A DNA stretch of 64,000 nt from Blakeslea trispora (Eukaryota; Mucoromycota; Mucoromycetes; Mucorales; Choanephoraceae), in NCBI GenBank assembly GCA_025331445.1, contig JAIWNE010000085.1, forward strand, positions 79,682 through 143,681, written 5' to 3'. Under the pieces are notes generated by a model. The model ran no database searches. It was not told the origin of the DNA and saw only the letters and a list, made by a program, of their open reading frames with translations. Positions 17,289 to 61,373 of this stretch are shown piece by piece. The translations under genes and the position numbers were made by a program. Within the stretch, counting starts at the first letter, position 1. Each line of letters begins with the position of its first letter.

Positions 17289-17378
17289 CATCCTTTTGTC
17301 ATCCCCTCTTAGAAAACGTTAAAGCACCAAAAAAAACAGAAACAGTCTTATAACCCAAAAAAAAATTACATTTATTCT

Positions 17379-27920: not shown

Positions 27921-28626
27921 TTATTTCATTTTTAAAAAAAAATTCCAGCCAAAATTTCCCGTTGGATAGATAAGTAATGGCTAATGATTACCATCTTATT
28001 ACCGATGTAATAAGAATCCTGTATGGTTAAATCATAAGCAAAGCAAAGCAAAGCAAAGCTCAGTCTTAAAGTTGTTAATATAAATGCTTGCTATTAATGC
28101 ATCTGCTTTATCGAAAAGCGCACGTTTGGTAAAAAGAGCGTACTAAGGAGTAACGCAGCTATAGTCAGTTGTAGAACAATGAGTTTGTCCATACTTGATT
28201 AAATCCACTTTTTCTATCTTCTATCTTCTGGATCATCTTTACCTTTTGCATTGTCTCTACCTTGGTAGATTAATTCTCCTTTTGTATACAGCTACTAGCT
28301 TGGTTGTGGTGTTTACAATACCACACTCTTTTTTTTTTAATAATAATAATAACAAAAAAAAATGTATTCGATGCGTAAATCGGTAAACCATTAAGCTTAT
28401 GAATCATGTTATGAGCCAATGATTGGATAAACCTATGAAATAGCAAATGAATGATAATGATGATAGTGGCAGTAGTGGCAGTAGTGGCAGTCATTAGCTA
28501 ATAGCGTCTGTCACTTTTCCAACATATGCCAATTCGACAATAAGCGATAAACAGCAGATGAACATTCAAACATAAACTTGTTTTTCTTTGTTTGCAAGAT
28601 CATAAAGCATAGCCCCCCTCTAGCTT

Positions 28627-28926
28627 ATGAGTCACCATTTGTTACTTGCATTTCAGATCTTGAGCATTCCCAAGAGGTATAATAGCAATAATATCAATGA
28701 TAGCAATAATACTGATAGTAGCACTAATACTGATAATAGCACTAATAGCAGCAACAGCAATGATGGTAAAGATGAAAAACCAAAAAATAGTTTGAAATCA
28801 TTTAATATGTGGCGTTTTATAGCAGGGGTAATGTCAATGAGATTGTTAGGGGTAGTCAAGCTGACGATCTCTAATTGCTCAAGCAATCACAACAAGACAT
28901 TTATAAATAAGCATAATAATAAGTGA
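28627..28926 (+). CDS. 99-residue Asn/Ser-rich ORF of array A unit (hypothetical)
   Basis: MSHHLLLAFQILSIPKRY, then an Asn/Asp/Ser/Thr-rich repeat stretch, then MWRFIAGVMS...LLGVVKL. The same frame occurs at 31145-31444, 33663-33962 and 36182-36481. Array B units 2 and 3 keep start, stop and frame with indels in multiples of three (57509-57832 and 60377-60700, minus strand), while B unit 1 is broken by one base in a T-run. Frame retention between diverged arrays hints at selection, but the sequence is low complexity and a TTTCAG splice acceptor lies inside, so it may be an exon or chance. Confidence 0.3.
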   Translation: MSHHLLLAFQILSIPKRYNSNNINDSNNTDSSTNTDNSTNSSNSNDGKDEKPKNSLKSFNMWRFIAGVMSMRLLGVVKLTISNCSSNHNKTFINKHNNK

Positions 28927-29501
28927 AAACAAAAACGAAAAAAAAAATAATGTGTTTAATTTCATTGATTTCATTGTTTTTTAGTGTTTTCATTGATTTC
29001 ATTGATTTCATCGATTTCATTGTTTTTATTGACTTTAAATACTTTTATTGTAATCATTACTCTTCTATCTATTTCTTTATTTTATTACGGCTATTTACTA
29101 TTGATGATGCTTTATTTAAGAGATCTAATAGCCTGAAACTTCGTACTTTATTATTATGGCCATAGATCATCATGAACGAGGATTAAAAAAAAAAAAACAA
29201 AAGAAAAAAAAAAGAAGGAAAGTCATAGTTAGTACACATCAGTTTAGTAGAAGATATCAAGTTAGTAGACATTGCATGTACACGCACAAAGGAATAGAAA
29301 AAAAAATGGGGTTAGTAGCGTAAGCTCGCACAGCATATTCCAATATCCTCAATGATGCTGGTCCACTATAGATGCTGGTCCATAACAATGCTGGTCCATA
29401 ACAATGCTGGTCCATAACAATGCTGGTCCATAACAATGCTGATCCACTATAGATGCTGGTTTACATTTCGACCGGTATAGAAGCGACCACGTCTTGAATA
29501 C

Positions 29502-29561
29502 CTGCAAAGAAAAGAAAAAGGTCTTATTAGTATCCGTAATTCAGAAAGATAGCATGATTAC
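29502..29561 (-). other. intron-like segment in array A unit 1 (minus strand)
   Basis: 60 nt, GTAATC...TACTAAT...pyrimidine tract...TTTGCAG on the minus strand, followed by GTATTCAAGACGTGG. Conserved in all A and B units. Size and signals match the introns of the two host genes in this window. Confidence 0.5.
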
Positions 29562-30286
29562 CCGATTCACTGCACAGCATAACACCAGGTCACCGAAAAG
29601 CATCAGAGCCAAAGACCAGAGAGACCAAAAGACCAGAGAGACCAAAAGACCAGAGAGACCAAAAGACCAGAGAGACCAGAGAGCCGAGAGAGTAAGAACC
29701 AAGTCTTGAAAAGCTGCATAAAGAAAAGTTACTATCTGTGATTTCAAGAAAGATGATATAGTCACCTAGTTTTTTTTTTCTGGACAACAAAAGACGCGTC
29801 GTATCATTTGTAAGCACCAAACCAGAAGGACCAGAGAATAAGCCAAAAATACCGGAGGACCATTTTTGTCGTGATTGCAAAGTGATTCCAAAGTGATTTC
29901 AAAGATGAGCGGAATCGCGTTTGAAACAAAAGAATAACCAGAACTAGTAAACCAGGTGCTTAGTATAACAGCTTTTAGGGTGACAAAGTCAGAAATATAG
30001 GTTACATACCAAGACTTGCATTCTTGTCGTGCTTGAGAACCTGATTTCGAAGATGAGCAACATGGCGATCGAGAGATGAGGGTAACCAGAATCACAAAAA
30101 AAAAACCGCGTAGTATAACGGCTTTTAAGGAGACACAATCAAAAGCATACAGTAGTTGCCTAACCAGACGGTTTCTTCTTCTTCGGTATACACCAGCAGT
30201 AACCACCATGAAAGATCTATAACCTATACCTATGTGCGTGTACATGTCTATTTTACCTGATGTCTACTAATCAGAGAGAGAGAGAA

Positions 30287-30326
<40 letters not shown>

Positions 30327-30469
30327 CAAGAAAAATTCCCTCCCTCAAGCGTGGGCGGACATTGAACACCCATTTTTTTTTTCAAACGTGTCTTGAGCCC
30401 TTTCCTCCAAAGTGCGTCAACACAGTGAGAAATCGCTCTCATGGCGCATGTAGCCTCGTCGGGGTACCA

Positions 30470-30477
30470 TATAAAAG
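30470..30477 (+). promoter_or_regulatory. TATA-box-like TATAAAAG at A1/A2 junction
   Basis: Created only where two units meet; repeated at 32989-32996 and 35507-35514 and, inverted, at the two junctions of array B. Promoter activity is inference. Confidence 0.35.
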
Positions 30478-30478
30478 A

Positions 30479-32804
30479 GTTGGATAGATAAGTAATGGCT
30501 AATGATTACCATCTTATTACCGATGTAATAAGAATCCTGTATGGTTAAATCATAAGCAAAGCAAAGCAAAGCAAAGCTCAGTCTTAAAGTTGTTAATATA
30601 AATGCTTGCTATTAATGCATCTGCTTTATCGAAAAGCGCACGTTTGGTAAAAAGAGCGTACTAAGGAGTAACGCAGCTATAGTCAGTTGTAGAACAATGA
30701 GTTTGTCCATACTTGATTAAATCCACTTTTTCTATCTTCTATCTTCTGGATCATCTTTACCTTTTGCATTGTCTCTACCTTGGTAGATTAATTCTCCTTT
30801 TGTATACAGCTACTAGCTTGGTTGTGGTGTTTACAATACCACACTCTTTTTTTTTTAATAATAATAATAACAAAAAAAAATGTATTCGATGCGTAAATCG
30901 GTAAACCATTAAGCTTATGAATCATGTTATGAGCCAATGATTGGATAAACCTATGAAATAGCAAATGAATGATAATGATGATAGTGGCAGTAGTGGCAGT
31001 AGTGGCAGTCATTAGCTAATAGCGTCTGTCACTTTTCCAACATATGCCAATTCGACAATAAGCGATAAACAGCAGATGAACATTCAAACATAAACTTGTT
31101 TTTCTTTGTTTGCAAGATCATAAAGCATAGCCCCCCTCTAGCTTATGAGTCACCATTTGTTACTTGCATTTCAGATCTTGAGCATTCCCAAGAGGTATAA
31201 TAGCAATAATATCAATGATAGCAATAATACTGATAGTAGCACTAATACTGATAATAGCACTAATAGCAGCAACAGCAATGATGGTAAAGATGAAAAACCA
31301 AAAAATAGTTTGAAATCATTTAATATGTGGCGTTTTATAGCAGGGGTAATGTCAATGAGATTGTTAGGGGTAGTCAAGCTGACGATCTCTAATTGCTCAA
31401 GCAATCACAACAAGACATTTATAAATAAGCATAATAATAAGTGAAAACAAAAACGAAAAAAAAAATAATGTGTTTAATTTCATTGATTTCATTGTTTTTT
31501 AGTGTTTTCATTGATTTCATTGATTTCATCGATTTCATTGTTTTTATTGACTTTAAATACTTTTATTGTAATCATTACTCTTCTATCTATTTCTTTATTT
31601 TATTACGGCTATTTACTATTGATGATGCTTTATTTAAGAGATCTAATAGCCTGAAACTTCGTACTTTATTATTATGGCCATAGATCATCATGAACGAGGA
31701 TTAAAAAAAAAAAAACAAAAGAAAAAAAAAAGAAGGAAAGTCATAGTTAGTACACATCAGTTTAGTAGAAGATATCAAGTTAGTAGACATTGCATGTACA
31801 CGCACAAAGGAATAGAAAAAAAAATGGGGTTAGTAGCGTAAGCTCGCACAGCATATTCCAATATCCTCAATGATGCTGGTCCACTATAGATGCTGGTCCA
31901 TAACAATGCTGGTCCATAACAATGCTGGTCCATAACAATGCTGGTCCATAACAATGCTGATCCACTATAGATGCTGGTTTACATTTCGACCGGTATAGAA
32001 GCGACCACGTCTTGAATACCTGCAAAGAAAAGAAAAAGGTCTTATTAGTATCCGTAATTCAGAAAGATAGCATGATTACCCGATTCACTGCACAGCATAA
32101 CACCAGGTCACCGAAAAGCATCAGAGCCAAAGACCAGAGAGACCAAAAGACCAGAGAGACCAAAAGACCAGAGAGACCAAAAGACCAGAGAGACCAGAGA
32201 GCCGAGAGAGTAAGAACCAAGTCTTGAAAAGCTGCATAAAGAAAAGTTACTATCTGTGATTTCAAGAAAGATGATATAGTCACCTAGTTTTTTTTTTCTG
32301 GACAACAAAAGACGCGTCGTATCATTTGTAAGCACCAAACCAGAAGGACCAGAGAATAAGCCAAAAATACCGGAGGACCATTTTTGTCGTGATTGCAAAG
32401 TGATTCCAAAGTGATTTCAAAGATGAGCGGAATCGCGTTTGAAACAAAAGAATAACCAGAACTAGTAAACCAGGTGCTTAGTATAACAGCTTTTAGGGTG
32501 ACAAAGTCAGAAATATAGGTTACATACCAAGACTTGCATTCTTGTCGTGCTTGAGAACCTGATTTCGAAGATGAGCAACATGGCGATCGAGAGATGAGGG
32601 TAACCAGAATCACAAAAAAAAAACCGCGTAGTATAACGGCTTTTAAGGAGACACAATCAAAAGCATACAGTAGTTGCCTAACCAGACGGTTTCTTCTTCT
32701 TCGGTATACACCAGCAGTAACCACCATGAAAGATCTATAACCTATACCTATGTGCGTGTACATGTCTATTTTACCTGATGTCTACTAATCAGAGAGAGAG
32801 AGAA

Positions 32805-32845
<41 letters not shown>

Positions 32846-32997
32846 CAAGAAAAATTCCCTCCCTCAAGCGTGGGCGGACATTGAACACCCATTTTTTTTT
32901 TCAAACGTGTCTTGAGCCCTTTCCTCCAAAGTGCGTCAACACAGTGAGAAATCGCTCTCATGGCGCATGTAGCCTCGTCGGGGTACCATATAAAAGA
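30479..32997 (+). repeat. array A unit 2
   Basis: Near-identical to unit 1; contains the same open frames displaced by 2,518. Confidence 0.95.
32989..32996 (+). promoter_or_regulatory. TATA-box-like TATAAAAG at A2/A3 junction
   Basis: Same junction motif as at 30470-30477. Confidence 0.35.
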
Positions 32998-35322
32998 GTT
33001 GGATAGATAAGTAATGGCTAATGATTACCATCTTATTACCGATGTAATAAGAATCCTGTATGGTTAAATCATAAGCAAAGCAAAGCAAAGCAAAGCTCAG
33101 TCTTAAAGTTGTTAATATAAATGCTTGCTATTAATGCATCTGCTTTATCGAAAAGCGCACGTTTGGTAAAAAGAGCGTACTAAGGAGTAACGCAGCTATA
33201 GTCAGTTGTAGAACAATGAGTTTGTCCATACTTGATTAAATCCACTTTTTCTATCTTCTATCTTCTGGATCATCTTTACCTTTTGCATTGTCTCTACCTT
33301 GGTAGATTAATTCTCCTTTTGTATACAGCTACTAGCTTGGTTGTGGTGTTTACAATACCACACTCTTTTTTTTTTAATAATAATAATAACAAAAAAAAAT
33401 GTATTCGATGCGTAAATCGGTAAACCATTAAGCTTATGAATCATGTTATGAGCCAATGATTGGATAAACCTATGAAATAGCAAATGAATGATAATGATGA
33501 TAGTGGCAGTAGTGGCAGTAGTGGCAGTCATTAGCTAATAGCGTCTGTCACTTTTCCAACATATGCCAATTCGACAATAAGCGATAAACAGCAGATGAAC
33601 ATTCAAACATAAACTTGTTTTTCTTTGTTTGCAAGATCATAAAGCATAGCCCCCTCTAGCTTATGAGTCACCATTTGTTACTTGCATTTCAGATCTTGAG
33701 CATTCCCAAGAGGTATAATAGCAATAATATCAATGATAGCAATAATACTGATAGTAGCACTAATACTGATAATAGCACTAATAGCAGCAACAGCAATGAT
33801 GGTAAAGATGAAAAACCAAAAAATAGTTTGAAATCATTTAATATGTGGCGTTTTATAGCAGGGGTAATGTCAATGAGATTGTTAGGGGTAGTCAAGCTGA
33901 CGATCTCTAATTGCTCAAGCAATCACAACAAGACATTTATAAATAAGCATAATAATAAGTGAAAACAAAAACGAAAAAAAAAATAATGTGTTTAATTTCA
34001 TTGATTTCATTGTTTTTTAGTGTTTTCATTGATTTCATTGATTTCATCGATTTCATTGTTTTTATTGACTTTAAATACTTTTATTGTAATCATTACTCTT
34101 CTATCTATTTCTTTATTTTATTACGGCTATTTACTATTGATGATGCTTTATTTAAGAGATCTAATAGCCTGAAACTTCGTACTTTATTATTATGGCCATA
34201 GATCATCATGAACGAGGATTAAAAAAAAAAAAACAAAAGAAAAAAAAAAGAAGGAAAGTCATAGTTAGTACACATCAGTTTAGTAGAAGATATCAAGTTA
34301 GTAGACATTGCATGTACACGCACAAAGGAATAGAAAAAAAAATGGGGTTAGTAGCGTAAGCTCGCACAGCATATTCCAATATCCTCAATGATGCTGGTCC
34401 ACTATAGATGCTGGTCCATAACAATGCTGGTCCATAACAATGCTGGTCCATAACAATGCTGGTCCATAACAATGCTGATCCACTATAGATGCTGGTTTAC
34501 ATTTCGACCGGTATAGAAGCGACCACGTCTTGAATACCTGCAAAGAAAAGAAAAAGGTCTTATTAGTATCCGTAATTCAGAAAGATAGCATGATTACCCG
34601 ATTCACTGCACAGCATAACACCAGGTCACCGAAAAGCATCAGAGCCAAAGACCAGAGAGACCAAAAGACCAGAGAGACCAAAAGACCAGAGAGACCAAAA
34701 GACCAGAGAGACCAGAGAGCCGAGAGAGTAAGAACCAAGTCTTGAAAAGCTGCATAAAGAAAAGTTACTATCTGTGATTTCAAGAAAGATGATATAGTCA
34801 CCTAGTTTTTTTTTTCTGGACAACAAAAGACGCGTCGTATCATTTGTAAGCACCAAACCAGAAGGACCAGAGAATAAGCCAAAAATACCGGAGGACCATT
34901 TTTGTCGTGATTGCAAAGTGATTCCAAAGTGATTTCAAAGATGAGCGGAATCGCGTTTGAAACAAAAGAATAACCAGAACTAGTAAACCAGGTGCTTAGT
35001 ATAACAGCTTTTAGGGTGACAAAGTCAGAAATATAGGTTACATACCAAGACTTGCATTCTTGTCGTGCTTGAGAACCTGATTTCGAAGATGAGCAACATG
35101 GCGATCGAGAGATGAGGGTAACCAGAATCACAAAAAAAAAACCGCGTAGTATAACGGCTTTTAAGGAGACACAATCAAAAGCATACAGTAGTTGCCTAAC
35201 CAGACGGTTTCTTCTTCTTCGGTATACACCAGCAGTAACCACCATGAAAGATCTATAACCTATACCTATGTGCGTGTACATGTCTATTTTACCTGATGTC
35301 TACTAATCAGAGAGAGAGAGAA

Positions 35323-35363
<41 letters not shown>

Positions 35364-35515
35364 CAAGAAAAATTCCCTCCCTCAAGCGTGGGCGGACATT
35401 GAACACCCATTTTTTTTTTCAAACGTGTCTTGAGCCCTTTCCTCCAAAGTGCGTCAACACAGTGAGAAATCGCTCTCATGGCGCATGTAGCCTCGTCGGG
35501 GTACCATATAAAAGA
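32998..35515 (+). repeat. array A unit 3
   Basis: As unit 2, but with one C fewer in the C-run near 33651. Confidence 0.95.
35507..35514 (+). promoter_or_regulatory. TATA-box-like TATAAAAG at A3/A4 junction
   Basis: Same junction motif as at 30470-30477. Confidence 0.35.
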
Positions 35516-37841
35516 GTTGGATAGATAAGTAATGGCTAATGATTACCATCTTATTACCGATGTAATAAGAATCCTGTATGGTTAAATCATAAGCAAAGCA
35601 AAGCAAAGCAAAGCTCAGTCTTAAAGTTGTTAATATAAATGCTTGCTATTAATGCATCTGCTTTATCGAAAAGCGCACGTTTGGTAAAAAGAGCGTACTA
35701 AGGAGTAACGCAGCTATAGTCAGTTGTAGAACAATGAGTTTGTCCATACTTGATTAAATCCACTTTTTCTATCTTCTATCTTCTGGATCATCTTTACCTT
35801 TTGCATTGTCTCTACCTTGGTAGATTAATTCTCCTTTTGTATACAGCTACTAGCTTGGTTGTGGTGTTTACAATACCACACTCTTTTTTTTTTAATAATA
35901 ATAATAACAAAAAAAAATGTATTCGATGCGTAAATCGGTAAACCATTAAGCTTATGAATCATGTTATGAGCCAATGATTGGATAAACCTATGAAATAGCA
36001 AATGAATGATAATGATGATAGTGGCAGTAGTGGCAGTAGTGGCAGTCATTAGCTAATAGCGTCTGTCACTTTTCCAACATATGCCAATTCGACAATAAGC
36101 GATAAACAGCAGATGAACATTCAAACATAAACTTGTTTTTCTTTGTTTGCAAGATCATAAAGCATAGCCCCCCTCTAGCTTATGAGTCACCATTTGTTAC
36201 TTGCATTTCAGATCTTGAGCATTCCCAAGAGGTATAATAGCAATAATATCAATGATAGCAATAATACTGATAGTAGCACTAATACTGATAATAGCACTAA
36301 TAGCAGCAACAGCAATGATGGTAAAGATGAAAAACCAAAAAATAGTTTGAAATCATTTAATATGTGGCGTTTTATAGCAGGGGTAATGTCAATGAGATTG
36401 TTAGGGGTAGTCAAGCTGACGATCTCTAATTGCTCAAGCAATCACAACAAGACATTTATAAATAAGCATAATAATAAGTGAAAACAAAAACGAAAAAAAA
36501 AATAATGTGTTTAATTTCATTGATTTCATTGTTTTTTAGTGTTTTCATTGATTTCATTGATTTCATCGATTTCATTGTTTTTATTGACTTTAAATACTTT
36601 TATTGTAATCATTACTCTTCTATCTATTTCTTTATTTTATTACGGCTATTTACTATTGATGATGCTTTATTTAAGAGATCTAATAGCCTGAAACTTCGTA
36701 CTTTATTATTATGGCCATAGATCATCATGAACGAGGATTAAAAAAAAAAAAACAAAAGAAAAAAAAAAGAAGGAAAGTCATAGTTAGTACACATCAGTTT
36801 AGTAGAAGATATCAAGTTAGTAGACATTGCATGTACACGCACAAAGGAATAGAAAAAAAAATGGGGTTAGTAGCGTAAGCTCGCACAGCATATTCCAATA
36901 TCCTCAATGATGCTGGTCCACTATAGATGCTGGTCCATAACAATGCTGGTCCATAACAATGCTGGTCCATAACAATGCTGGTCCATAACAATGCTGATCC
37001 ACTATAGATGCTGGTTTACATTTCGACCGGTATAGAAGCGACCACGTCTTGAATACCTGCAAAGAAAAGAAAAAGGTCTTATTAGTATCCGTAATTCAGA
37101 AAGATAGCATGATTACCCGATTCACTGCACAGCATAACACCAGGTCACCGAAAAGCATCAGAGCCAAAGACCAGAGAGACCAAAAGACCAGAGAGACCAA
37201 AAGACCAGAGAGACCAAAAGACCAGAGAGACCAGAGAGCCGAGAGAGTAAGAACCAAGTCTTGAAAAGCTGCATAAAGAAAAGTTACTATCTGTGATTTC
37301 AAGAAAGATGATATAGTCACCTAGTTTTTTTTTTCTGGACAACAAAAGACGCGTCGTATCATTTGTAAGCACCAAACCAGAAGGACCAGAGAATAAGCCA
37401 AAAATACCGGAGGACCATTTTTGTCGTGATTGCAAAGTGATTCCAAAGTGATTTCAAAGATGAGCGGAATCGCGTTTGAAACAAAAGAATAACCAGAACT
37501 AGTAAACCAGGTGCTTAGTATAACAGCTTTTAGGGTGACAAAGTCAGAAATATAGGTTACATACCAAGACTTGCATTCTTGTCGTGCTTGAGAACCTGAT
37601 TTCGAAGATGAGCAACATGGCGATCGAGAGATGAGGGTAACCAGAATCACAAAAAAAAAACCGCGTAGTATAACGGCTTTTAAGGAGACACAATCAAAAG
37701 CATACAGTAGTTGCCTAACCAGACGGTTTCTTCTTCTTCGGTATACACCAGCAGTAACCACCATGAAAGATCTATAACCTATACCTATGTGCGTGTACAT
37801 GTCTATTTTACCTGATGTCTACTAATCAGAGAGAGAGAGAA

Positions 37842-37882
<41 letters not shown>

Positions 37883-38020
37883 CAAGAAAAATTCCCTCCC
37901 TCAAGCGTGGGCGGACATTGAACACCCATTTTTTTTTTCAAACGTGTCTTGAGCCCTTTCCTCCAAAGTGCGTCAACACAGTGAGAAATCGCTCTCATGG
38001 CGCATGTAGCCTCGTCGGGG
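35516..38020 (+). repeat. array A unit 4 (right end)
   Basis: Ends at CTCGTCGGGG. The right flank GTTTCAAAATTTTTGATTTC then forms a hairpin-capable motif that also flanks array B in inverse orientation. Confidence 0.95.
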
Positions 38021-40135
38021 TTTCAAAATTTTTGATTTCTAACCCCGCGCGGTCTTTAAGTATAATGAATAATCTTTGTGATGTTTGTGGGTCCATCGAA
38101 ACTGAAATGAAGTTTAGAACAAGAGCTATTGTCACACTTATCTTTCGGTAAACATATATAAAGTCAATAGAATTAAAGAAGGTTTACTAGCGGGTCTAAT
38201 CGGAGTAAGAACGGAATATCAATATTTTATAATTTGTAGTGACACAAAACAGAACTTGTCTCTGACATGGTTGCTATCAAATATTATAAGATTTATGTCT
38301 TGTACGATACGTCACTTTGACAAAACAAATATTCAGCTCTCACTTATTCTATATTCGTTTACTTGAACCATATTATTAAAAACTAGCCTTTGTGTTGTAT
38401 GCAACGTCCTTTTTAGGGACAATAACAAATTATAAAGTCAGATTAGCCATCATATCGTTAACATATATGGACATGTTGGTTAACAGTGAAATACGTTCTT
38501 ATACAAATAAACAGAGAGTAAGTTGTGTGTCAAAGTAAGGTAAACGCTCAGTTAAGATGCGGGGTCCATCATTAGTATAAATAGAGCCACAAAATGTATA
38601 TTAAATAAAGACAACTTTCTTTTGGGTCCGATTGATTTATTACTGTTATCAATTGTACCGCGAATGTCACACTTCGGTCAATCTACAAGAAATGCTGCTT
38701 TCTACCCATTACACCTAAAAAGTTACCAATAATACCCCTCAGTTTCATTAAAAATTGAAGCGCATTCAATCTGAAAAGTTTATAAGGAAGGCACGTATAT
38801 ATAATAAATGCAGACCAACTTCTACCTATCTTTTTTGACCGTCATCTGTTTTTTTCGTCTTTACTCTTTTATTGTATTTGTGTACCGTTATATTTTTGGA
38901 ATAAAACAAGATTGGCGTTCTTAAATATTGTCTGACTAAACTTGTTTTTAACATTTACATTAGTGTCAAAGTTTGATTTTTTTGTCAGTAGTAATGCTAG
39001 CACCAGCAGGTGTATATAGATGTAGTACAAGGCTTGTGACAGCAATGCTGGAGCTGTCTAACAATTTTGTTATACTCCAAGAATATAACAGGTGTTATAG
39101 GCCAAGAAATCAGGGAATTAATCAGACTAAAGATAATGTTTTATTTACTTCAAAATTGATGTGCTATTTATACTTTTCATGAAGATGATATTTCAACTGA
39201 GATTGTAAAACTTTTCTAGAGGCTTGTAGATGATTATGATAATAACAACGAATCGGATGAGAGATGAATGATGACAGTCTTGTAAAGAAGAATTACTAAA
39301 ATAGAATGATTGGCCATCTGTACCTTAAACCCAGTAACTGGTAAATTATTGGTAAGATGTCAGTCCTGACCTTGAATGAAGGTTTATCCGAATTCACTCC
39401 TAGCGAGATTTCATCCAAATATGGTATAAAAGTGTACAAAAATCTGAATAACGTACTGCAATTGGCTAAAAATTAAAAACTCTGTGTAATTCGAGTTTAG
39501 ACGGCGTTTGAGAGTCAATGGAGCTTTAAAATGAGCAAAAAACAGATTTTATTGGCTGCTATGGGTACACAGGTTTCGTCTTTTAATTTTGCGCTTGCTA
39601 TGTAATTTTTGAGTCTTAAAATCCTTTTTTTTTGCGTAGCACCAAGAAAAAGCTTGCACTTGGGTTTAAAATGACTTAGAAAAAATTAGTCACTGCGTAG
39701 AAGAAATCTGCCGCTATGTAGAAAAAAATTGCTTCTTTTTCTCTTTATTCTTTTTGGTACAATATGTTTGACTCTATGATCTTTTAACACAACACACTCA
39801 TAGCAGATCAAGTTCCTAATAACAAGCGCAAGCTCTATGTCATTTTACTGTAACAAGAAGCAGATCACTAACTTTGCTCGCTTAAACTTTCTCTAGTGAT
39901 GTCGATGCCAAGATGTGTTGGTAAGTTTGTTTTTATTACAAAAACATATCACTCACTAATACAACTTAATTACATAGACTGATATGTGTGTTATCTCGCC
40001 TATGGTCTTGATGTAAGTAATACTCTGACTAGAAAAGTTCAATTATTCACACTTTCTTTTAAGTAGATTGCTTTGAACTTTTTGTAATATCTCTGCCACT
40101 TTGAAGGTCAATTAGCAGCTCATATATACCAGATT
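38021..40135. other. inter-array sequence, no recognised gene
   Basis: AT-rich. The first ~35 bp after array A match, inverted, the left flank of array B. Beyond that only short frames without a domain. Confidence 0.5.
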
Positions 40136-43830: not shown

Positions 43831-43833
43831 TAT

Positions 43834-45398: not shown

Positions 45399-45399
<1 letters not shown>

Positions 45400-45430
<31 letters not shown>
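45400..45430. repeat. (TG)15 microsatellite
   Basis: Uninterrupted TG dinucleotide run. Confidence 0.95.
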
Positions 45431-45431
<1 letters not shown>

Positions 45432-48687: not shown

Positions 48688-48689
48688 TA

Positions 48690-49379: not shown

Positions 49380-51300
49380 TGATTTGCGACGCACTTGCAT
49401 AAGATGCAGACAAGAGAGCCATCGTCTCAAAACCCATCAATTATGCCCAATAAACTCAATATCGTCAATTTGGTTGAGAAGATTGAAAGTACTCCTATTG
49501 AAGACGGAGCCCAAGAAACAAGTACAAATGCTCCTAAGCAATACATCTGCAACTCATGTGTCATCTCAACTTATTACCGTAAATGTCACTTTTATGTGTA
49601 TATCAGACTTACGCCAGTTTAAGTGTCTGCTGAAATTCTAATTGAGAGAGATGCGCTAGGTGAGATCAATGTTCTTTGATATAAATGCATTGCTCTTATG
49701 CAAATCTAAGAGCGCACTTCGCATTCAAGTAATGTTTGACCACAGTTGCAGTTGCTTTGTGGTAACTGATCAGCCATTGTTGAGCCCTTATGTGTAACAC
49801 CACAAGTTTTGGCTTCTTCGTAGACACCAAGAGACTAAAATTCAAGAGACTAGAATTCAACTGAACTTAAGAATAGTATTAGTTCTTATGACATGTTTCT
49901 CAGCTTTGCTTCAGTGGGTGAAAAGCTTGATTCGAGTCTTGTTAACATGAGATCTGATATCTACAACTTTCACATGGAAGACATTTCTAATCATTTGACT
50001 GGATTTGCCCTTCCTGAGGATGTGACAGCACCTATATCTGCTCAAATTCATCTTCACAACTCCATCATTCAGCTTTAAAATAGAGCATCCAATTTCTCTG
50101 ACATGAATTAGAACGTCTTGCAGCAGACTCAAGATGTAATGCATACTATGAATCATTTTGATCAACTGAATAAAAACATGCTTCAATTTACTGAGGAATA
50201 GTAAAACAATCTCAACGGTATCGAGGGGCTGTATAAGGTCAAGATGGTTTTTTTGTATAGAAGTTTCACATGATAGAAGGCGGTACAACAGACCGACTGA
50301 GCACTCTAGAATTGGATTGATCAAAGTTAGCAACGAAGCTACTTTCAATTGAGATGTAAATGTTTAGTTAAAAGGTGATGAAACCCTTCCCAGAACAAGC
50401 AAAACCAATCAGGACTATGAGTCCTTGTATTGTAACCTGTTGTATCCAGATAAAGCAGCTGCTGGATCATTAAAAAATGAGATATTGTCAAGCTTTACAA
50501 TAAAATGCCTACTATGACATGTTATACTTCTTGCTTAATAATTTGGCTCAGTCCTAAAAATCTCCCTCATCTTTCTCACAAGAACCACCAAGACGCTGTT
50601 AGCATTTTTCGACGCTTTGGTAAACCTGATCTTTTCAGCACTATAAAACCACAGCCTAACTTGACTGGAGATTCAGCGAAAGCTTTAGAATGCATAACAT
50701 GCCTTCAGTTGTCTAAGCTCTTGCACTGAATTGTTCAACATGAAGTTTGTTAGAATTCTTGAAGAAAAAATTGATGAATACGTATTTGGTAGAGTTGTTA
50801 AATACGTTTCGGATTGTTCATAAAATCTATATCTTTGTGGCAAATTCAGCATTTGTATCGACGATGAGTCGTTTGCCTTCCAGGTGCTATCATGTACATT
50901 ATCGAATATGTCTATAAGTGTGATGCTAGAGCAGCTTTTACTCCTAAAGAGAGAAATAAGATGAATTTATGCCTCAATGCGAGACAAGTTTCGACTCTAG
51001 ATACATGTTAGAGATCATCTTATTATCATCCTTAGAGAAACTATTTAGCATATTAAAGTCTACAAGTACACTATAAAAATTGAAAAGCAGCGCTTTATAA
51101 AAAAAAAAGTTAAAATCAACACTCATCGCTTAAAAGAAGGAAAGCCGAATCAATCCGGATACCAGAACCATTTTGTATCCTAAATTCCTTGCAACTTTAC
51201 GTCTGGTATAGTAGTAAAAATTGACACTGAGCACCCGGAAAGAATGACAACCCAATCTGTCTTTTCTAAACAATCGCATTCAAATAAGTCAAAAGGTACT
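49380..51300 (+). pseudogene. old degenerate Helitron Rep relic
   Basis: Traces in changing frames: a Cys/His knuckle RRTCIRCRQESHRLKTHQLC (about 49387-49450); FASVGEKLDSSL then RSDIYNFHMEDISNHL (about 49905-50000); HQDAVSIFRRFGKPDLF (about 50588-50635), the family block before the nuclease; MKFVRILEEKID...FGRVVKYV (about 50740-50810); MYIIEYVYKCDARAAFTPKE (about 50890-50950), corresponding to the two-tyrosine block KYINKYVYKG of the Helitron at 1-3.3 kb. Dozens of stops and shifts. No helicase part recognised. Clearly older than the left Helitron and from a different subfamily. Confidence 0.72.
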
Positions 51301-51723
51301 ACCTACATATGCTTCTTTACCTTGCTTCTGGTGCCCAATGCTTTGCTGATTCAACAGATCTAAATGATGCTGTGTATTCCATTTACTGATTGGCAATAGA
51401 AGCACTTGTGCTAATTTAGCAAGACGCTCAGTGGTAGCACTTTATAACCGAAGCAACAGTAGTTTCTTTAGCAACTTTGCTTGAAAGTTGACTTTGCACA
51501 GACATTACCTTTTGATTATCTACAAATCTATCCAAGCTGTTTAACAAGTTTAAAAACAACTTGTCAGGCGATTGTTTGCACAAAATACAGAATGCCGATT
51601 AACAAAGTATAGGAACAGGCTTCAGATGACTTTGGTATGTGACTCTCAAACTATTTTTCTGGTCAGGACCAATTAAATGTGGCTTTGCTCAGAGCTAAAA
51701 CTCCTGGATCAATCAAGTTACTA
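51301..51723. other. decayed sequence, no recognised gene
   Basis: AT-rich, between the Helitron relic and the small MITE. Confidence 0.4.
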
Positions 51724-51878
51724 CAGTAGTCGCTCTATATAAGGGTGTTCTGTTTAATGGTATTCTCGATATAAAGGTGGGGTTTTGAAAGGATTTTTCA
51801 AGACAAGCTCTAAAACCAATTCTATTTAAGGGTGAGATTTTCAACATTTTTGGCTACCCTTAAATAGAGCGACTACTG
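51724..51878. mobile_element. 155-bp MITE, TIR CAGTAGTCGCTCTATATAAG, TA TSD
   Basis: Left end CAGTAGTCGCTCTATATAAG and inverted right end (CAGTAGTCGCTCTATTTAAG) match over about 25 bp; flanked by TA (51722-51723, 51879-51880). No coding. TIR style fits pogo/Fot-type non-autonomous elements of the Tc1/mariner superfamily; no autonomous partner in this window. Confidence 0.88.
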
Positions 51879-51880
51879 TA

Positions 51881-52800
51881 GTAGACAGCAATTGCAACTC
51901 AAATCTTTTTCAATTCATTGAATCTTCATATGATACGCACACTCACATGGAGGTCTATACGAAAGCCATCAGAGGTTGTTGTCCTGTTGTTGGTATGTAC
52001 TTGCAATAAAAGACATCGTATTTAATTAGTAGCTAATCTCACTCTTCAATAGATTGTAGTCTTTGGCTTCAAACAGAATCGTCTTGTTTAACTTTACCAA
52101 AGAACTCTGGTCAACTCAGATCTATAAAATTAATCTAGAACACGCGCTATCTTTATGGTAAAAAAAAACTTAAAGACCACGAAACGTAGCTCAAGACCTA
52201 TTATGCATCATTGCAAAGGTTTCGAAATATAAATTAGAACCCGACCTTGTCCTTCTATCGGATTATCAAGCATCCGACGACACAGGCACTATGTCAAACG
52301 TATCAAAGTTCAGATTGATATCCATAAAACAGAGAGTTGGTTTGTAACATGTTTTTCAATTCTCAGCTAAACTGAGTGGCATTTTCAGTAGCTTATTTGG
52401 GTGCAATAGGTAGAAGTTAGGTATCACCTGTACGCGACCATAAGTTACTTTCCAATAATTTGATCCAGGTATAGGAATGTAAAAGAAGTAGAATACAATC
52501 ATGCTTTGTGTCTAAGCAATGTATCTTACTATGCATACACTACGTAAAAACTAACAGACAATTAAATTAGAAAAAATTACATTGAGTAACATTAAACGGG
52601 GGTTAAAAACAAACATCAACATTGCTCCGACTTAAATCCTCTGGTAATTCTACCTTTCATTATGTCAAGCTTAAAATAAACAATAACTTAAAACTCACAA
52701 CACTCTAACTTCAGAAAACCCAAACAACATCACTCATCTCATTTGTTATTAAAAAGGGGAGAATATTAGGCGCAGTGCGGACTCTAAAATCGAAATTTTT
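51881..52800. other. inter-array sequence, no recognised gene
   Basis: AT-rich. The last ~40 bp (CTCTAAAATCGAAATTTTTG) resemble the inverted right flank of array A. Confidence 0.5.
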
Positions 52801-52966
52801 GAATCCCCGACGATGGTACAAGCACTATGAGCGGGCGGGGGGATGTTTATTTTTCTTTCTCTCACTGTGTTGATGCACTTTGGAGGAAAGGGCTCAAGAC
52901 ACGTTTTTAAAAAAAAAAAATGGGTGTTCAATGTCCGCCCACGCTTGAGGGAGGGAATTTTTCTTG

Positions 52967-53004
<38 letters not shown>

Positions 53005-55650
53005 TTCTCTCTCTCTCTGATTAGTAGACATCAGGTAAAATAGACATGTACACGCACATAGGTATAGGTTATAGATCTTCATGGTGGTTACTGCTGGTAT
53101 ATGCCGAAGAAGAAGAAGAAGAAGAAGAAGAAGAAGAAGAAGAAAAAGAAGAAACCGATTGGTTAGGTGACTATCGCATATTGTTGACCATGTCTTTCTT
53201 TAAAAGCCGTTACACTAAGAGCCTTTCTCTCGTTCTGTAGTCCTCATCTCTCAAGCGATGTTGCTCATCTTCAACATCAGGTACTCAGACTGACAAAAAT
53301 GCTGTCCGGTGTGTTCCGCTTATCTTCGGTTTACCGGTTGGTGCTTGCAAGTGCTACGGCGCGTCTTTTGTTGTTCAGAAGAACTAGGTGACTATACTAT
53401 CCTACTTGACTTACGGATACTGACATACCCCTTATTTCTTTTATACAGCTATTCAAGACTTGGTATGCGCTCTACTGGCTTTCTAGGCTACTATGATGCT
53501 ATGGTCTTTTGGTCGTATGGTCTTTTGGTTATACCGCTTTTTACTACGCGGCTTTTTTTTTTCTTATTTCTTCATGATTCTGGTTACCCTCATCTCTCGA
53601 TCGCCATGTTGCTCATCTTCGGAATCAGGCTCTCAAGCACGACAAGAATGCAAGTCTTGGTATGTAACCTATATTTTGACTTTGTCACCCTAAAAGCTGT
53701 TATACTAAGCACCTGGTTTACTAGTTCTGGTTATTCTTTTGTTTCAAACGCGATTCTGCTCATCTTTGAAATCACTTTGCAATCAGGACAAAATGGTCCT
53801 TCGGTATTTTCTGCTTATGCTCTGGTCCTTCTGGTTTGATGCTTACAAGTGCCACGACGCGTCTTTTGTTGTCCGCAAAACTAGGTGACTATATCATCTT
53901 TCTTGAAATCACAGACAATAACTTTTCTTTTTTTTTTTTTTTTGCAGGTATTCAAGACTTGGCTTATCCTCTATTGGCTTTCTGGCGTTCTGGTCTTTTG
54001 GTCTTTTGGTTTTTGGCTCTGGTGCTTTTCGGTGACCTGGTGTTATACTGTGCAGTGAATCGGGTAATCATGCTATCTTTCTGAATTACGGATACTAATA
54101 AGGCCTTTTTCTTTTCTTTGCAGGTGTTCAAGACGTGGTCGCTTCTATACCGGTCGAAATGTAAACCAGCATCTATAGTGGATCAGCATCTATAGTGGAT
54201 CAGCATTGTTATGGATCAGCATCATTGAGGATGTTGGAATATGCTGTGCGAGCTTACGCTACTAACCCCGTTTTTTTTTTTCCTTTGTGCGTGTACATGT
54301 AATGTCTACTAACTTGATGTCTTTTACTAAACTGATGTGTACTAACTATGACCTCTCTCTCTTTTTTGTTTCCTTTTTTTTTTAATCCTCGTTCATGATG
54401 ATCTATGGCCATAATAATAAAGTACGAAGTTTCCGGCTATTAGATCTCTTAAATAAAGCATCACCAGTAGTAAATAGCCGTAATAAAGTAAAACATAGAA
54501 GAAGTAGATAGAAGAGTAATGATTACAATAAAAGAATTTAATAAAATCAATAAAAACAATGAAATCGATGAAATCAATGAAAACACTAAAAAACAATGAA
54601 ATCGATGAAATCAATGAAATTAAATACACTATTTTTTTTCATCTTTGTTTTCATTTATTATTATGCTTATTTATAAATGTCTTTTTGTTGTTGTTGTTGT
54701 TGCTTGAGCAGTTAGAGATCGCCAGCTTGACTACCCCTAACAATCTTATTGACATTACCCCTGCTATAAAACGCCACATATTAGATGATTTTAAACTATT
54801 TTTTTTTTATCGTTGCCATCATTGACATCGCTTCCATCGTTGCTATTGTTGTTATTGCTGCTATTATCAGTACTAGTGCTACTATCAGTATTATTGTTAT
54901 CATTGATATTATTGCTATTATACCTCTTGGTAATGCTCAAGATCTGAAATACAAGTAACAAATGGTGACTCATAAGCTAGAGAGGGGCTATGCTTTATGA
55001 TCTTGCAAACAAAGGAAAACAAGTTTGTGTTTGAATGCTCAGCTGTTATTTATCGCTTATTGTCGAATTGGCATATGTTGGAAAAGTGACAGACGCTATT
55101 AGCTAATGACTGCCACTACTGCCACTACTGCCACTATCATCATTATCATTCATTTGCTATTTCATAGGCTTATCCAATCATTGGCTCATAACATGATTCA
55201 TAAGCTTAATGGTTTACCGATTTACGCATCGAATACATTTTTTTTTTGTTATTATTATTATTAAAAAAAAAAGAGTGTGGTATTGTAAACACCACAACCA
55301 AGCTAGTAGCTGTATACAAAAGGAGAATTAATCTACCAAGGTAGAGACAATGCAAAAGGTAAAGATGATCCAGAAGATAGAAGATAGAAAAAGTGGATTT
55401 AATCAAGTATGGACAAACTCATTGTTCTACAACTGACTATAGCTGCGTTACTCCTTAGTATGCTCTTTTTACCAAACGCGCGCTTTTCGATAAAGCAAAT
55501 GCATTAGTGGCTAGTATCTATATTAACAGCTTTGAGACTGAGCTTTGCTGTGATTTGATTTGCTTATGATTTAACCATACAGGATTGTTATTACATCTCT
55601 TACAATATGGTACTCATAAGTAGCTGTGTGTTTATTCAACTCTTTTATAC
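52801..55650 (-). repeat. array B unit 1
   Basis: 2,850 bp. Differs from units 2 and 3 mostly by single-base deletions, for example CTGTCCGG versus CTGCTCCGG near 53303 and TCCGCAAAAC versus TCCGGCAAAAC near 53873. Confidence 0.93.
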
Positions 55651-55816
55651 GAATCCCCGACGATGGTACAAGCACTATGAGCGGGCGGGGGGGATGTTTA
55701 TTTTTCTTTCTCTCACTGTGTTGATGCACTTTGGAGGAAAGGGCTCAAGACACGTTTTTTAAAAAAAAAAATGGGTGTTCAATGTCCGCCCACGCTTGAG
55801 GGAGGGAATTTTTCTT

Positions 55817-55854
<38 letters not shown>

Positions 55855-58510
55855 TTTCTCTCTCTCTCTGATTAGTAGACATCAGGTAAAATAGACATGT
55901 ACACGCACATAGGTATAGGTTATAGATCTTTCATGGTGGTTACTGCTGGTATATGCCGAAGAAGAAGAAGAAGAAGAAGAAGAAGAAGAAGAAGAAAAAG
56001 AAGAAACCGATTGGTTAGGTGACTATCGCATATTGTTGACCATGTCTTTCTTTAAAAGCCGTTACACTAAGAGCCTTTCTCTCGTTCTGTAGTCCTCATC
56101 TCTCAAGCGATGTTGCTCATCTTCAACATCAGGTACTCAGACTGACAAAAATGCTGCTCCGGTGTGTTCCGCTTATGCTTCGGTTACCGGTCTGGTGCTT
56201 GCAAGTGCTACGGCGCGTCTTTTGTTGTTCAGAAGAACTAGGTGACTATACTACCTACTTGACTTACGGATACTGACATACCCCTTATTTCTTTTATACA
56301 GCTATTCAAGACTTGGTATGCGCTCTACTGGCTTTCTAGGCTACTATGATGCTATGGTCTTTTGGTCGTATGGTCTTTTGGTTATACCGCTTTTTACTAC
56401 GCGGCCTTTTTTTTTTCTTTATTTCTTCATGATTCTGGTTACCCTCATCTCTCGATCGCCATGTTGCTCATCTTCGGAATCAGGCTCTCAAGCACGACAA
56501 GAATGCAAGTCTTGGTATGTAACCTATATTTCTGACTTTGTCACCCTAAAAGCTGTTATACTAAGCACCTGGTTTACTAGTTCTGGTTATTCTTTTGTTT
56601 CAAACGCGATTCTGCTCATCTTTGAAATCACTTTGCAATCAGGACAAAAGTGGTCCTTCGGTATTTTCTGCTTATGCTCTGGTCCTTCTGGTTTGATGCT
56701 TACAAGTGCCACGACGCGTCTTTTGTTGTCCGGCAAAACTAGGTGACTATATCATCTTTCTTGAAATCACAGACAATAACTTTTCTTTTTTTTTTTTTTT
56801 TGCAGGTATTCAAGACTTGGCTTATCCTCTATTGGCTTTCTGGCGTTCTGGTCTTTTGGTCTTTTGGTTTTTGGCTCTGGTGCTTTTCGGTGACCTGGTG
56901 TTATACTGTGCAGTGAATCGGGTAATCATGCTATCTTTCTGAATTACGGATACTAATAAGGCCTTTTTCTTTTCTTTGCAGGTGTTCAAGACGTGGTCGC
57001 TTCTATACCGGTCGAAATGTAAACCAGCATCTATAGTGGATCAGCATCTATAGTGGATCAGCATTGTTATGGATCAGCATCATTGAGGATGTTGGAATAT
57101 GCTGTGCGAGCTTACGCTACTAACCCCGTTTTTTTTTTTCCTTTGTGCGTGTACATGTAATGTCTACTAACTTGATGTCTTTTACTAAACTGATGTGTAC
57201 TAACTATGACCTCTCTCTCTTTTTTGTTTCCTTTTTTTTTTAATCCTCGTTCATGATGATCTATGGCCATAATAATAAAGTACGAAGTTTCCGGCTATTA
57301 GATCTCTTAAATAAAGCATCACCAGTAGTAAATAGCCGTAATAAAGTAAAACATAGAAGAAGTAGATAGAAGAGTAATGATTACAATAAAAGAATTTAAT
57401 AAAATCAATAAAAACAATGAAATCGATGAAATCAATGAAAACACTAAAAAACAATGAAATCGATGAAATCAATGAAATTAAATACACTATTTTTTTTCAT
57501 CTTTGTTTTCATTTATTATTATGCTTATTTATAAATGTCTTTTTGTTGTTGTTGTTGTTGCTTGAGCAGTTAGAGATCGCCAGCTTGACTACCCCTAACA
57601 ATCTTATTGACATTACCCCTGCTATAAAACGCCACATATTAGATGATTTTAAACTATTTTTTTTTTCATCGTTGCCATCATTGACATCGCTTCCATCGTT
57701 GCTATTGTTGCTATTGCTACTATTATCAGTACTAGTGCTACTATCAGTATTATTGTTATCATTGATATTATTGCTATTATACCTCTTGGTAATGCTCAAG
57801 ATCTGAAATACAAGTAACAAATGGTGACTCATAAGCTAGAGAGGGGCTATGCTTTATGATCTTGCAAACAAAGGAAAACAAGTTTGTGTTTGAATGCTCA
57901 GCTGTTATTTATCGCTTATTGTCGAATTGGCATATGTTGGAAAAGTGACAGACGCTATTAGCTAATGACTGCCACTACTGCCACTACTGCCACTATCATC
58001 ATTATCATTCATTTGCTATTTCATAGGCTTATCCAATCATTGGCTCATAACATGATTCATAAGCTTAATGGTTTACCGATTTACGCATCGAATACATTTT
58101 TTTTTTGTTATTATTATTATTAAAAAAAAAAAGAGTGTGGTATTGTAAACACCACAACCAAGCTAGTAGCTGTATACAAAAGGAGAATTAATCTACCAAG
58201 GTAGAGACAATGCAAAAGGTAAAGATGATCCAGAAGATAGAAGATAGAAAAAGTGGATTTAATCAAGTATGGACAAACTCATTGTTCTACAACTGACTAT
58301 AGCTGCGTTACTCCTTAGTATGCTCTTTTTACCAAACGCGCGCTTTTCGATAAAGCAAATGCATTAGTGGCTAGTATCTATATTAACAGCTTTGAGACTG
58401 AGCTTTGCTGTGATTTGATTTGCTTATGATTTAACCATACAGGATTGTTATTACATCTCTTACAATATGGTACTCATAAGTAGCTGTGTGTTTATTCAAC
58501 TCTTTTATAC
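55651..58510 (-). repeat. array B unit 2
   Basis: 2,860 bp, nearly identical to unit 3 except run lengths and isolated indels. Confidence 0.94.
57509..57832 (-). CDS. 107-residue Asn/Ser-rich ORF of array B unit (hypothetical)
   Basis: Counterpart of the 99-residue ORF of array A: same start MSHHLLL, same MWRFIAGVMS block and same end KHNNK; extra residues come from in-frame repeat expansion. A second copy lies at 60377-60700. Coding status unproven. Confidence 0.3.
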   Translation of the reverse strand: MSHHLLLVFQILSITKRYNSNNINDNNNTDSSTSTDNSSNSNNSNDGSDVNDGNDEKKNSLKSSNMWRFIAGVMSIRLLGVVKLAISNCSSNNNNNKKTFINKHNNK

Positions 58511-58677
58511 GAATCCCCGACGATGGTACAAGCACTATGAGCGGGCGGGGGGATGTTTATTTTTCTTTCTCTCACTGTGTTGATGCACTTTGGAGGAAAG
58601 GGCTCAAGACACGTTTTTTAAAAAAAAAAAATGGGTGTTCAATGTCCGCCCACGCTTGAGGGAGGGAATTTTTCTTG

Positions 58678-58712
<35 letters not shown>

Positions 58713-61373
58713 TTCTCTCTCTCTCTCTGATTAGTAGACATCAGGTAAAATAGACATGTACACGCACATAGGTATAGGTTATAGATCTTTCATGGTGGTT
58801 ACTGCTGGTATATGCCGAAGAAGAAGAAGAAGAAGAAGAAGAAGAAGAAGAAAAAGAAGAAACCGATTGGTTAGGTGACTATCGCATATTGTTGACCATG
58901 TCTTTCTTTAAAAGCCGTTACACTAAGAGCCTTTCTCTCGTTCTGTAGTCCTCATCTCTCAAGCGATGTTGCTCATCTTCAACATCAGGTACTCAAGACT
59001 GACAAAAATGCTGCTCCGGTGTGTTCCGCTTATGCTTCGGTTTACCGGTCTGGTGCTTGCAAGTGCTACGGCGCGTCTTTTGTTGTTCAGAAGAACTAGG
59101 TGACTATACTATCCTACTTGACTTACGGATACTGACATACCCCTTATTTCTTTTATACAGCTATTCAAGACTTGGTATGCGCTCTACTGGCTTTCTAGGC
59201 TACTATGATGCTATGGTCTTTTGGTCGTATGGTCTTTTGGTTATACCGCTTTTTACTACGCGGCCTTTTTTTTTTCTTTATTTCTTCATGATTCTGGTTA
59301 CCCTCATCTCTCGATCGCCATGTTGCTCATCTTCGGAATCAGGCTCTCAAGCACGACAAGAATGCAAGTCTTGGTATGTAACCTATATTTCTGACTTTGT
59401 CACCCTAAAAGCTGTTATACTAAGCACCTGGTTTACTAGTTCTGGTTATTCTTTTGTTTCAAACGCGATTCTGCTCATCTTTGAAATCACTTTGCAATCA
59501 GGACAAAAGTGGTCCTTCGGTATTTTCTGCTTATGCTCTGGTCCTTCTGGTTTGATGCTTACAAGTGCCACGACGCGTCTTTTGTTGTCCGGCAAAACTA
59601 GGTGACTATATCATCTTTCTTGAAATCACAGACAATAACTTTTCTTTTTTTTTTTTTTTTTGCAGGTATTCAAGACTTGGCTTATCCTCTATTGGCTTTC
59701 TGGCGTTCTGGTCTTTTGGTCTTTTGGTCTTTTGGTTTTTGGCTCTGGTGCTTTTCGGTGACCTGGTGTTATACTGTGCAGTGAATCGGGTAATCATGCT
59801 ATCTTTCTGAATTACGGATACTAATAAGGCCTTTTTCTTTTCTTTGCAGGTGTTCAAGACGTGGTCGCTTCTATACCGGTCGAAATGTAAACCAGCATCT
59901 ATAGTGGATCAGCATCTATAGTGGATCAGCATTGTTATGGATCAGCATCATTGAGGATGTTGGAATATGCTGTGCGAGCTTACGCTACTAACCCCGTTTT
60001 TTTTTTTCCTTTGTGCGTGTACATGTAATGTCTACTAACTTGATGTCTTTTACTAAACTGATGTGTACTAACTATGACCTCTCTCTCTTTTTTGTTTCCT
60101 TTTTTTTTTAATCCTCGTTCATGATGATCTATGGCCATAATAATAAAGTACGAAGTTTCCGGCTATTAGATCTCTTAAATAAAGCATCACCAGTAGTAAA
60201 TAGCCGTAATAAAGTAAAACATAGAAGAAGTAGATAGAAGAGTAATGATTACAATAAAAGAATTTAATAAAATCAATAAAAACAATGAAATCGATGAAAT
60301 CAATGAAAACACTAAAAAACAATGAAATCGATGAAATCAATGAAATTAAATACACTATTTTTTTTCATCTTTGTTTTCATTTATTATTATGCTTATTTAT
60401 AAATGTCTTTTTGTTGTTGTTGTTGTTGCTTGAGCAGTTAGAGATCGCCAGCTTGACTACCCCTAACAATCTTATTGACATTACCCCTGCTATAAAACGC
60501 CACATATTAGATGATTTTAAACTATTTTTTTTTTCATCGTTGCCATCATTGACATCGCTTCCATCGTTGCTATTGTTGCTATTGCTACTATTATCAGTAC
60601 TAGTGCTACTATCAGTATTATTGTTATCATTGATATTATTGCTATTATACCTCTTGGTAATGCTCAAGATCTGAAATACAAGTAACAAATGGTGACTCAT
60701 AAGCTAGAGAGGGGCTATGCTTTATGATCTTGCAAACAAAGGAAAACAAGTTTGTGTTTGAATGCTCAGCTGTTATTTATCGCTTATTGTCGAATTGGCA
60801 TATGTTGGAAAAGTGACAGACGCTATTAGCTAATGACTGCCACTACTGCCACTACTGCCACTATCATCATTATCATTCATTTGCTATTTCATAGGCTTAT
60901 CCAATCATTGGCTCATAACATGATTCATAAGCTTAATGGTTTACCGATTTACGCATCGAATACATTTTTTTTTTGTTATTATTATTATTAAAAAAAAAAA
61001 GAGTGTGGTATTGTAAACACCACAACCAAGCTAGTAGCTGTATACAAAAGGAGAATTAATCTACCAAGGTAGAGACAATGCAAAAGGTAAAGATGATCCA
61101 GAAGATAGAAGATAGAAAAAGTGGATTTAATCAAGTATGGACAAACTCATTGTTCTACAACTGACTATAGCTGCGTTACTCCTTAGTATGCTCTTTTTAC
61201 CAAACGCGCGCTTTTCGATAAAGCAAATGCATTAGTGGCTAGTATCTATATTAACAGCTTTGAGACTGAGCTTTGCTGTGATTTGATTTGCTTATGATTT
61301 AACCATACAGGATTTTTATTACATCGGTAATAATATGGTACTCATAAGTAGCCGTTTGTTTATTTAACTCTTT
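58511..61373 (-). repeat. array B unit 3 (right end)
   Basis: 2,863 bp. Its last ~60 bp (TTATTACATCGGTAATAATA) agree better with array A than with units 1 and 2. Intron-like segments at 59100-59160, 59602-59665 and 59790-59849. Ends at AACTCTTT against a gypsy fragment. Confidence 0.93.
59790..59849 (+). other. intron-like segment in array B unit 3
   Basis: 60 nt: GTAATC donor, TACTAAT branch-like motif at 59819-59825 (24 nt before the end), pyrimidine tract, TTTGCAG. The next bases are GTGTTCAAGACGTGG. Same element as 29502-29561 on the other strand of array A. Confidence 0.5.

Follow-up and report, generated by a model that had tools for sequence, protein, structure and literature searches.

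Two inverted arrays of a non-coding unit

We analysed 64,000 bp of the genome of Blakeslea trispora, a member of the Mucorales used industrially for carotenes. This stretch (hereafter the window) covers positions 79,682–143,681 of contig JAIWNE010000085.1 (assembly GCA_025331445.1), and window position 64000 is the end of that 143,681-bp contig, called C270 below; other loci are likewise named by contig (C36, C71, C84, etc.). Two arrays of a long tandem unit lie in the window in opposite orientation around a 14.8-kb core, and this module is considered here as a candidate centromere. The arrays are as follows.

27961–38021, + strand: left outer array, four non-coding units of 2518–2519 bp, unit 3' end towards the core
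27961–30478, 30479–32997, 32998–35515 and 35516–38021, + strand: the left units
52801–61373, − strand: right outer array, three non-coding units of ~2860 bp, unit 3' end towards the core
58511–61373, 55651–58510 and 52801–55650, − strand: the right units

Copies in the left array start every 2518–2519 bp and are 99.96% identical. Those in the right array are spaced at 2850–2868 bp, with an internal identity of 99.4–99.8% over aligned bases (98.6–99.2% in BLAST with gaps). Between the two arrays identity was 92.8–93.0% over aligned bases; in BLAST the main blocks matched at 87–91% and one block of ~260 bp at 96%. Copy numbers are given as assembled, and the assembly may have them wrong. The original prediction had described four ~2,518-bp units and three inverted, homologous ~2,860-bp units 14.8 kb apart, nearly identical within an array and diverged between arrays. 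Coordinates and BLAST bear out this geometry, with 99.4–100% identity within and ~93% between the arrays over aligned bases.

That the units encode no recognizable RNA or protein domain also held. An Rfam scan of the window at gathering score gave no match in the arrays, and ribosomal DNA or another known RNA was dropped as an identity for them; the sole Rfam match in the window was a tRNA at 11395–11466. None of 10 stop-to-stop open reading frames (ORFs) searched against Pfam (8 from units, 2 between the arrays) scored over the cut-off, and two gave sub-threshold matches. When 10 units were compared with one reference unit, 92 of 285 indels were divisible by 3, and no period of 3 was found among the variable sites. 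The unit therefore reads as non-coding, and a protein-coding unit was rejected on the Pfam result, the indel lengths and the lack of 3-periodicity.

Recurrence of the module in the genome

The original prediction had also proposed a whole-assembly search with the unit, and that search (37.2 Mb, 285 contigs) placed it on many further contigs. The exact unit-junction pattern occurred at 25 junctions on 8 contigs, and a reversed control pattern at none; it exposed arrays on C86, C152 and C184 that were missing from the unit similarity search. Counts from the genome searches with the unit, the central segment, the long interspersed nuclear element (LINE), the C120 core centre and the B edge (all described below) are lower bounds, as these searches score the best candidates only; in comparisons of array and core loci, short matches were dropped by length limits of 60–200 bp. 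Among loci, junction spacing (the unit length) ranged from about 2.5 to 3.35 kb and the array-to-array distance from 15 to 37 kb. Each core-bearing contig is short (between 12 and 144 kb), which cannot by itself separate a centromere from a transposon because any large repeat gives short contigs.

An assembly artefact is the least probable explanation of this layout. Near-identical units do assemble poorly, and a palindrome on C152 may be a fold-back error, but the same architecture was found at many loci with different sequences and different nested insertions. The original prediction had named a subtelomere or a centromere-like domain as possible contexts. Chromosome-end repeats, made palindromic by end fusion or by assembly, would suit arrays that often terminate contigs and the head-to-head palindrome of C152. 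However, 107 kb (C270), 51 kb (C36) and 14 kb (C71) of sequence lie outside an array, and we consider the subtelomeric half of that proposal very improbable. Four consecutive TTAGGG repeats had no match anywhere in the assembly, so that no telomere could be placed and the search is uninformative on a subtelomere.

Polarity, junctions and edges of the arrays

In all 12 arms that were read (both sides of C270, C71, C84 and C36, the right of C120 and C156, and the left of C110 and C95), the unit is oriented with its 3' end towards the core; the right arm of C36 consists of a 290-bp unit end only. A thirteenth arm, on C86, agrees by coordinates. Since the loci share descent, these polarities are not independent. 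Junctions and inner edges in the window are listed below.

30459–30482, likewise 32978–33001 and 35496–35519, + strand: unit junction with TATAAAAGAGTTG (TATA box)
55637–55660 and 58497–58520 (span 55637–58520), − strand: right-array TATA junctions, pointing towards the core
38022–39095: inner edge of type A, shared whole with C84 right and over its first 271 bp with C84 left and C36 right
49860–52800: type B inner edge, present in full or in part at C110, C120, C156, C36 left, C71, C95 and C86

The sequence TATAAAAGAGTTG was present in 9 of 9 printed unit junctions, and a pattern containing the TATA box matched 12 of 12 in the arrays read. The four outermost unit starts near position 1 are without a TATA box, so any such promoter would sit between units and point inward. 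From these sequence features we infer that the units are transcribed inward from the TATA junctions.

Towards the core, the arrays stop at a constant unit end, and two kinds of inner edge occur, A (window left, both sides of C84, C36 right) and B (window right, both sides of C71, C120, C156, C36 left, C95 and C110). The count of B edges excludes matches at query ~1809–2009, a dispersed repeat of ~160 bp, and matches at query 3–526 with 65–73% identity on contigs without a core. Outer ends vary: C71, C95 and the window have them near unit position 1, C110 near 500, C84 near 950 and C36 near 1000. A joint between array and retroelement is common to three outer ends (window right, C71 right and C95 left).

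These edges bear on the main rival explanation, a very large non-autonomous transposon of the foldback type, with terminal tandem arrays around a cargo core and about ten copies in the genome. The module is indeed modular and recurrent with inverted ends, and nested elements occur at the same site between copies, as such a transposon would have. Set against this are the contrast between fixed inner edges and differing outer ends, the flank beyond the array that three loci have in common, and the varying array-to-array distance. Matching target-site bases were not seen at the two outer ends in the window (by eye, window only), and in the ORFs tested Pfam found only known nested elements (Tc1-like, Helitron), with no transposase of the module's own. 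We regard a transposon of this kind as unlikely.

A core segment shared among loci

The original prediction did not recognize that the 14.8 kb enclosed by the arrays matters more than the arrays themselves. Inter-array DNA is homologous among loci, mostly at 85–99.6% identity with some pieces at 72–82%, and is interrupted by differing nested elements. Two of its features are listed below.

45067–46615: shared central segment, candidate kinetochore seat
45430–45602: AT-rich block (GC ~28%) with an inverted 13-bp motif, AGACAATGAAAAT, at 45451–45463 and 45549–45561

The central segment was found on at least 11 contigs, namely ten core loci and one fragment. It is whole, split in some cases by insertions, in C270, C156, C110, C120, C36, C84, C76 and C86, and lies in two pieces in C95 and C71; C191 holds one 320-bp piece. 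Seventeen matches of 52–69 bp at query ends on other contigs were excluded from the locus count. No ORF of at least 100 aa was found at 45067–46615. When positions 45380–46640 were aligned, 11 copies from 8 loci were 87–100% identical. In C120, C76 and C86 the core is palindromic, its two arms being 97–99% identical, and each of these cores contains the central segment twice.

The AT-rich block has a GC content of ~28%, vs. 37% for the window. It was read at nine loci, being identical to the window in C156 and 88–91% identical in seven others, and was placed at a tenth locus, C95, by match coordinates alone. The two copies of AGACAATGAAAAT are 98 bp apart, start to start, and the 13-mer occurs in the window at those two places only, even with one mismatch allowed. 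Among 43 fetched loci, 8 contain exact copies of an extended form of the pair, at 9 places in all; one arm of the pair differs in C36 and C84.

Some cores also carry longer ORFs. One of 307 aa is open in C84 (L016:7643–8563) and was matched over its full length in one frame at C36:79424–80347; broken pieces of it are present in C86 and C71, and it is absent from the window. An ORF of 490 aa lies in the cores of C84 and C86, outside the window. Neither had a Pfam match over the cut-off. Separately, C242, a long contig, contains at 479192–487117 pieces 71–80% identical to the centre of the palindromic C120 core, a possible relic.

Nested elements and neighbouring sequences

Other elements in the core and outside the arrays are listed below (RT, reverse transcriptase; MITE, miniature inverted-repeat transposable element).

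40606–41933: retroelement remnant in the core, whose repeated end of ~430 bp also occurs in C84 (three places), C36, C71 and partly C95
43833–44180: imperfect 350-bp palindrome in the core, interpreted as a MITE and recurring in C84, C110 and C36
47231–48691, − strand: Tc1-like element inserted in the core, with counterparts at the equivalent position of C110, C120 and C156
61374–62491, + strand: truncated retroelement (RT/RNase H) on the outer side of the right array, with the joint between them also at C95 left and C71 right
62725–62962: imperfect 240-bp palindrome (88%), MITE-like, outside the right array
15822–21432: LINE with zinc-knuckle ORF1 and RT ORF2, beside the left array
887–3304: ORF for a PIF1 helicase; its relatives make it Helitron-like, and its best match (67% over 72%) is a protein of Rhizopus delemar

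The remnant at 40606–41933 had no Pfam match, and its RT-like reading was made by eye. The palindrome at 43833–44180 was considered as the centre of the core and dropped. It has inverted repeats at its termini, and the fetched stretches of C120, C76 and C86 contain no match to it; on these grounds it is read as a MITE. At the corresponding position in C36 and C71, the body of the Tc1-like element is missing.

The LINE beside the left array shows the domains listed for Grem-LINE1, to which it is likened by domains only. At least 10 near-full copies (96–100% identity) were found on ten contigs, one each, nine of them over the whole query and one over 2,763 of 3,101 bases; three 70% copies and shorter pieces are excluded from this count. 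As a marker of centromeric contigs the LINE failed, 9 of the 10 near-full copies lying on contigs without a core match. Several copies are inside long contigs, including one on C251 that lies ~5 kb from Ndc80.

This distribution touches on a second alternative, in which the arrays are a pericentromeric or heterochromatic satellite near the kinetochore site and the actual centromeres lie elsewhere, as point motifs with LINE flanks in the manner of Mucor. One near-full LINE copy on each of ten contigs would fit it, as would the richness of Mucor pericentric DNA in such LINEs, as described in the part of the report consulted (PMC7377519). The copies within long contigs and next to Ndc80 speak against it, and a core common to the modules, each with its AT-rich block, suits a kinetochore seat better. 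We think a satellite of this sort quite unlikely.

Homogenization and possible exchange between loci

Over aligned bases, units were 98.2–100% identical within arrays and 90.5–99% between arrays of different loci. The left and right arrays of C71 are 98–100% alike. In the window, the left array is closer to the right array of C84 (95–96%) than to the window right array (93%), and the right array is nearer to the left array of C110 (97%) than to its own partner (93%). The window core segment (45380–46640) is 99.8% identical to that of C156, whereas the adjoining B edge is 97% identical, a contrast that probably reflects recent conversion between these two loci. The cross-locus kinship of the arrays, the distribution of the Tc1-like element and the core/edge contrast with C156 fit gene conversion together with arm exchange, and the sequence comparisons suggest that arms have been exchanged between loci.

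A candidate centromere

With a probability of roughly two in three, we interpret the paired arrays and their core modules, from sequence, as the centromeres of B. trispora. Of the two contexts named in the original prediction, the centromere-like domain is now favoured because the core is shared at about ten loci and the arrays point at it, and the subtelomere loses ground to the long flanks outside some array pairs. In such a centromere, outer tandem arrays (like otr) would face a central core (like imr/cnt), palindromic at some loci, and a module at about ten loci is what one per chromosome would give. Ten core centromeres in Mucor circinelloides (PMC12925627) and 11 chromosomes in Rhizopus stolonifer (PMC13111411) are given in the parts of those sources consulted; ten loci are within this range, which we counted for the centromere interpretation.

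The shared central segment would seat the kinetochore, the probable site being the AT-rich block that carries the inverted 13-bp motif. Convergent unit transcripts could feed RNA interference (RNAi) and heterochromatin in the arms, and gene conversion plus arm exchange between centromeres would keep arrays and cores similar. Formation of dsRNA and inversion, both raised by the original prediction, may likewise follow from the inverted repeat. One Piwi-domain (Argonaute) gene was found in the genome, and Ndc80 was recovered in a control search. No CENP-C was found in what was a weak test (sub-cut-off matches in 4 of 14 controls, no eukaryotic positive control). A genome search for a CENP-A-like H3 (E value up to 1) found none; the four H3 loci are 79–95% identical to canonical H3 over the pieces that matched. 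This fits the loss of CENP-A reported for Mucorales (PMC9089191, consulted in part). We tentatively propose, as a less secure extension, a CENP-A-independent centromere specified by DNA, in which polar arrays drive transcription onto the core, the AT-rich block seats the kinetochore and inverted arms are exchanged at centromeres; on this view, a lineage that lost CENP-A would have acquired a fission-yeast-like layout independently.

Several observations weigh against the centromere interpretation. The H3 search was made exon by exon, so that a very divergent, intron-split CENP-A could escape it. Array units contain stretches more AT-rich than the core block. The 13-bp motif was picked post hoc, and both shuffle tests follow its sighting: block shuffles reached a 13-bp inverted pair in 0 of 300 cases, and two one-mismatch matches of the 13-mer also occurred in 6 of 100 window shuffles. 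Only 1 of the 10 near-full LINE copies lies on a core contig, unlike in Mucor. C76 has a core in its 48.6-kb contig and no array in the ~22 kb read, and a 3-kb piece at 22500 of this contig had no match in the fetched sequences. The arrays of C152 (5548–22534) are of opposite polarity, their 3' ends pointing away from a 98% palindrome whose centre is near 14050; either the assembly folded back in error here or the head-to-head array is real. C275 has diverged unit pieces (72–82%) in a small 99% palindrome without a core at 463129–469684, well inside a 592-kb contig; this is perhaps an old or dead centromere.

How chromosomes keep centromeres without CENP-A is an open question for which Mucorales are a main test case. 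If the interpretation is true, one can ask whether sequence, inverted geometry or RNAi substitutes for CENP-A, and the coordinates are ready for chromatin immunoprecipitation and Hi-C in B. trispora.

Comparison with known centromeres

One of the closest known layouts is that of Schizosaccharomyces pombe (cnt/imr/otr), with a central core, inverted flanks, outer repeats and sequences common to its centromeres, according to the parts of the sources consulted (PMC4741521, PMC6538654). The likeness lies in inverted repeats around a core and in sequences shared among modules. The Blakeslea outer repeats differ in being head-to-tail macrosatellite arrays of one polarity, with 15–37 kb between arrays and core sequence shared between loci. 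The window lacks a border tRNA cluster, its one Rfam tRNA lying 16.5 kb outside the left array, and the CENP-A-like gene was not found at E values up to 1. Since the search for CENP-A gave a negative result, we do not class the module as a member of the fission-yeast type. If it is a centromere, the inverted-repeat design evolved again outside Ascomycota.

Candida tropicalis has inverted repeats and a mid core homologous across chromosomes, with left and right repeats homogenized (PMC4741521, in the part consulted). Such homogenization of left and right is seen at C71, whereas the arms in the window belong to different subtypes. The Candida centromeres are 10–11 kb long, use CENP-A and are without outer repeats, whereas the Blakeslea modules span 15–37 kb plus arrays.

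A literature search over titles and abstract openings, mostly of non-subscription papers, found no report of paired arrays of this kind or of Blakeslea centromeres among the matches listed. Centromeres have been described in Mucor lusitanicus and M. circinelloides, of the same order. As far as the consulted parts of the reports go, their mosaic centromere is without CENP-A, M. circinelloides has ten core sites, and cores are often on short contigs (PMC9089191, PMC10977804, PMC12925627). Blakeslea likewise has about ten cores, short contigs and no CENP-A found. The Mucor centromere differs in its short core with a 41-bp motif and its retrotransposon-rich flanks, and those parts of the reports do not mention paired tandem arrays or a palindromic core. 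An AT-rich core is a further trait of the Mucor type; in Blakeslea the block at 45430–45602 is AT-rich relative to the window, but less so than some stretches of the units. The Blakeslea modules, if they are centromeres, would represent a second, very different centromere design within Mucorales, with a DNA segment common to all modules.

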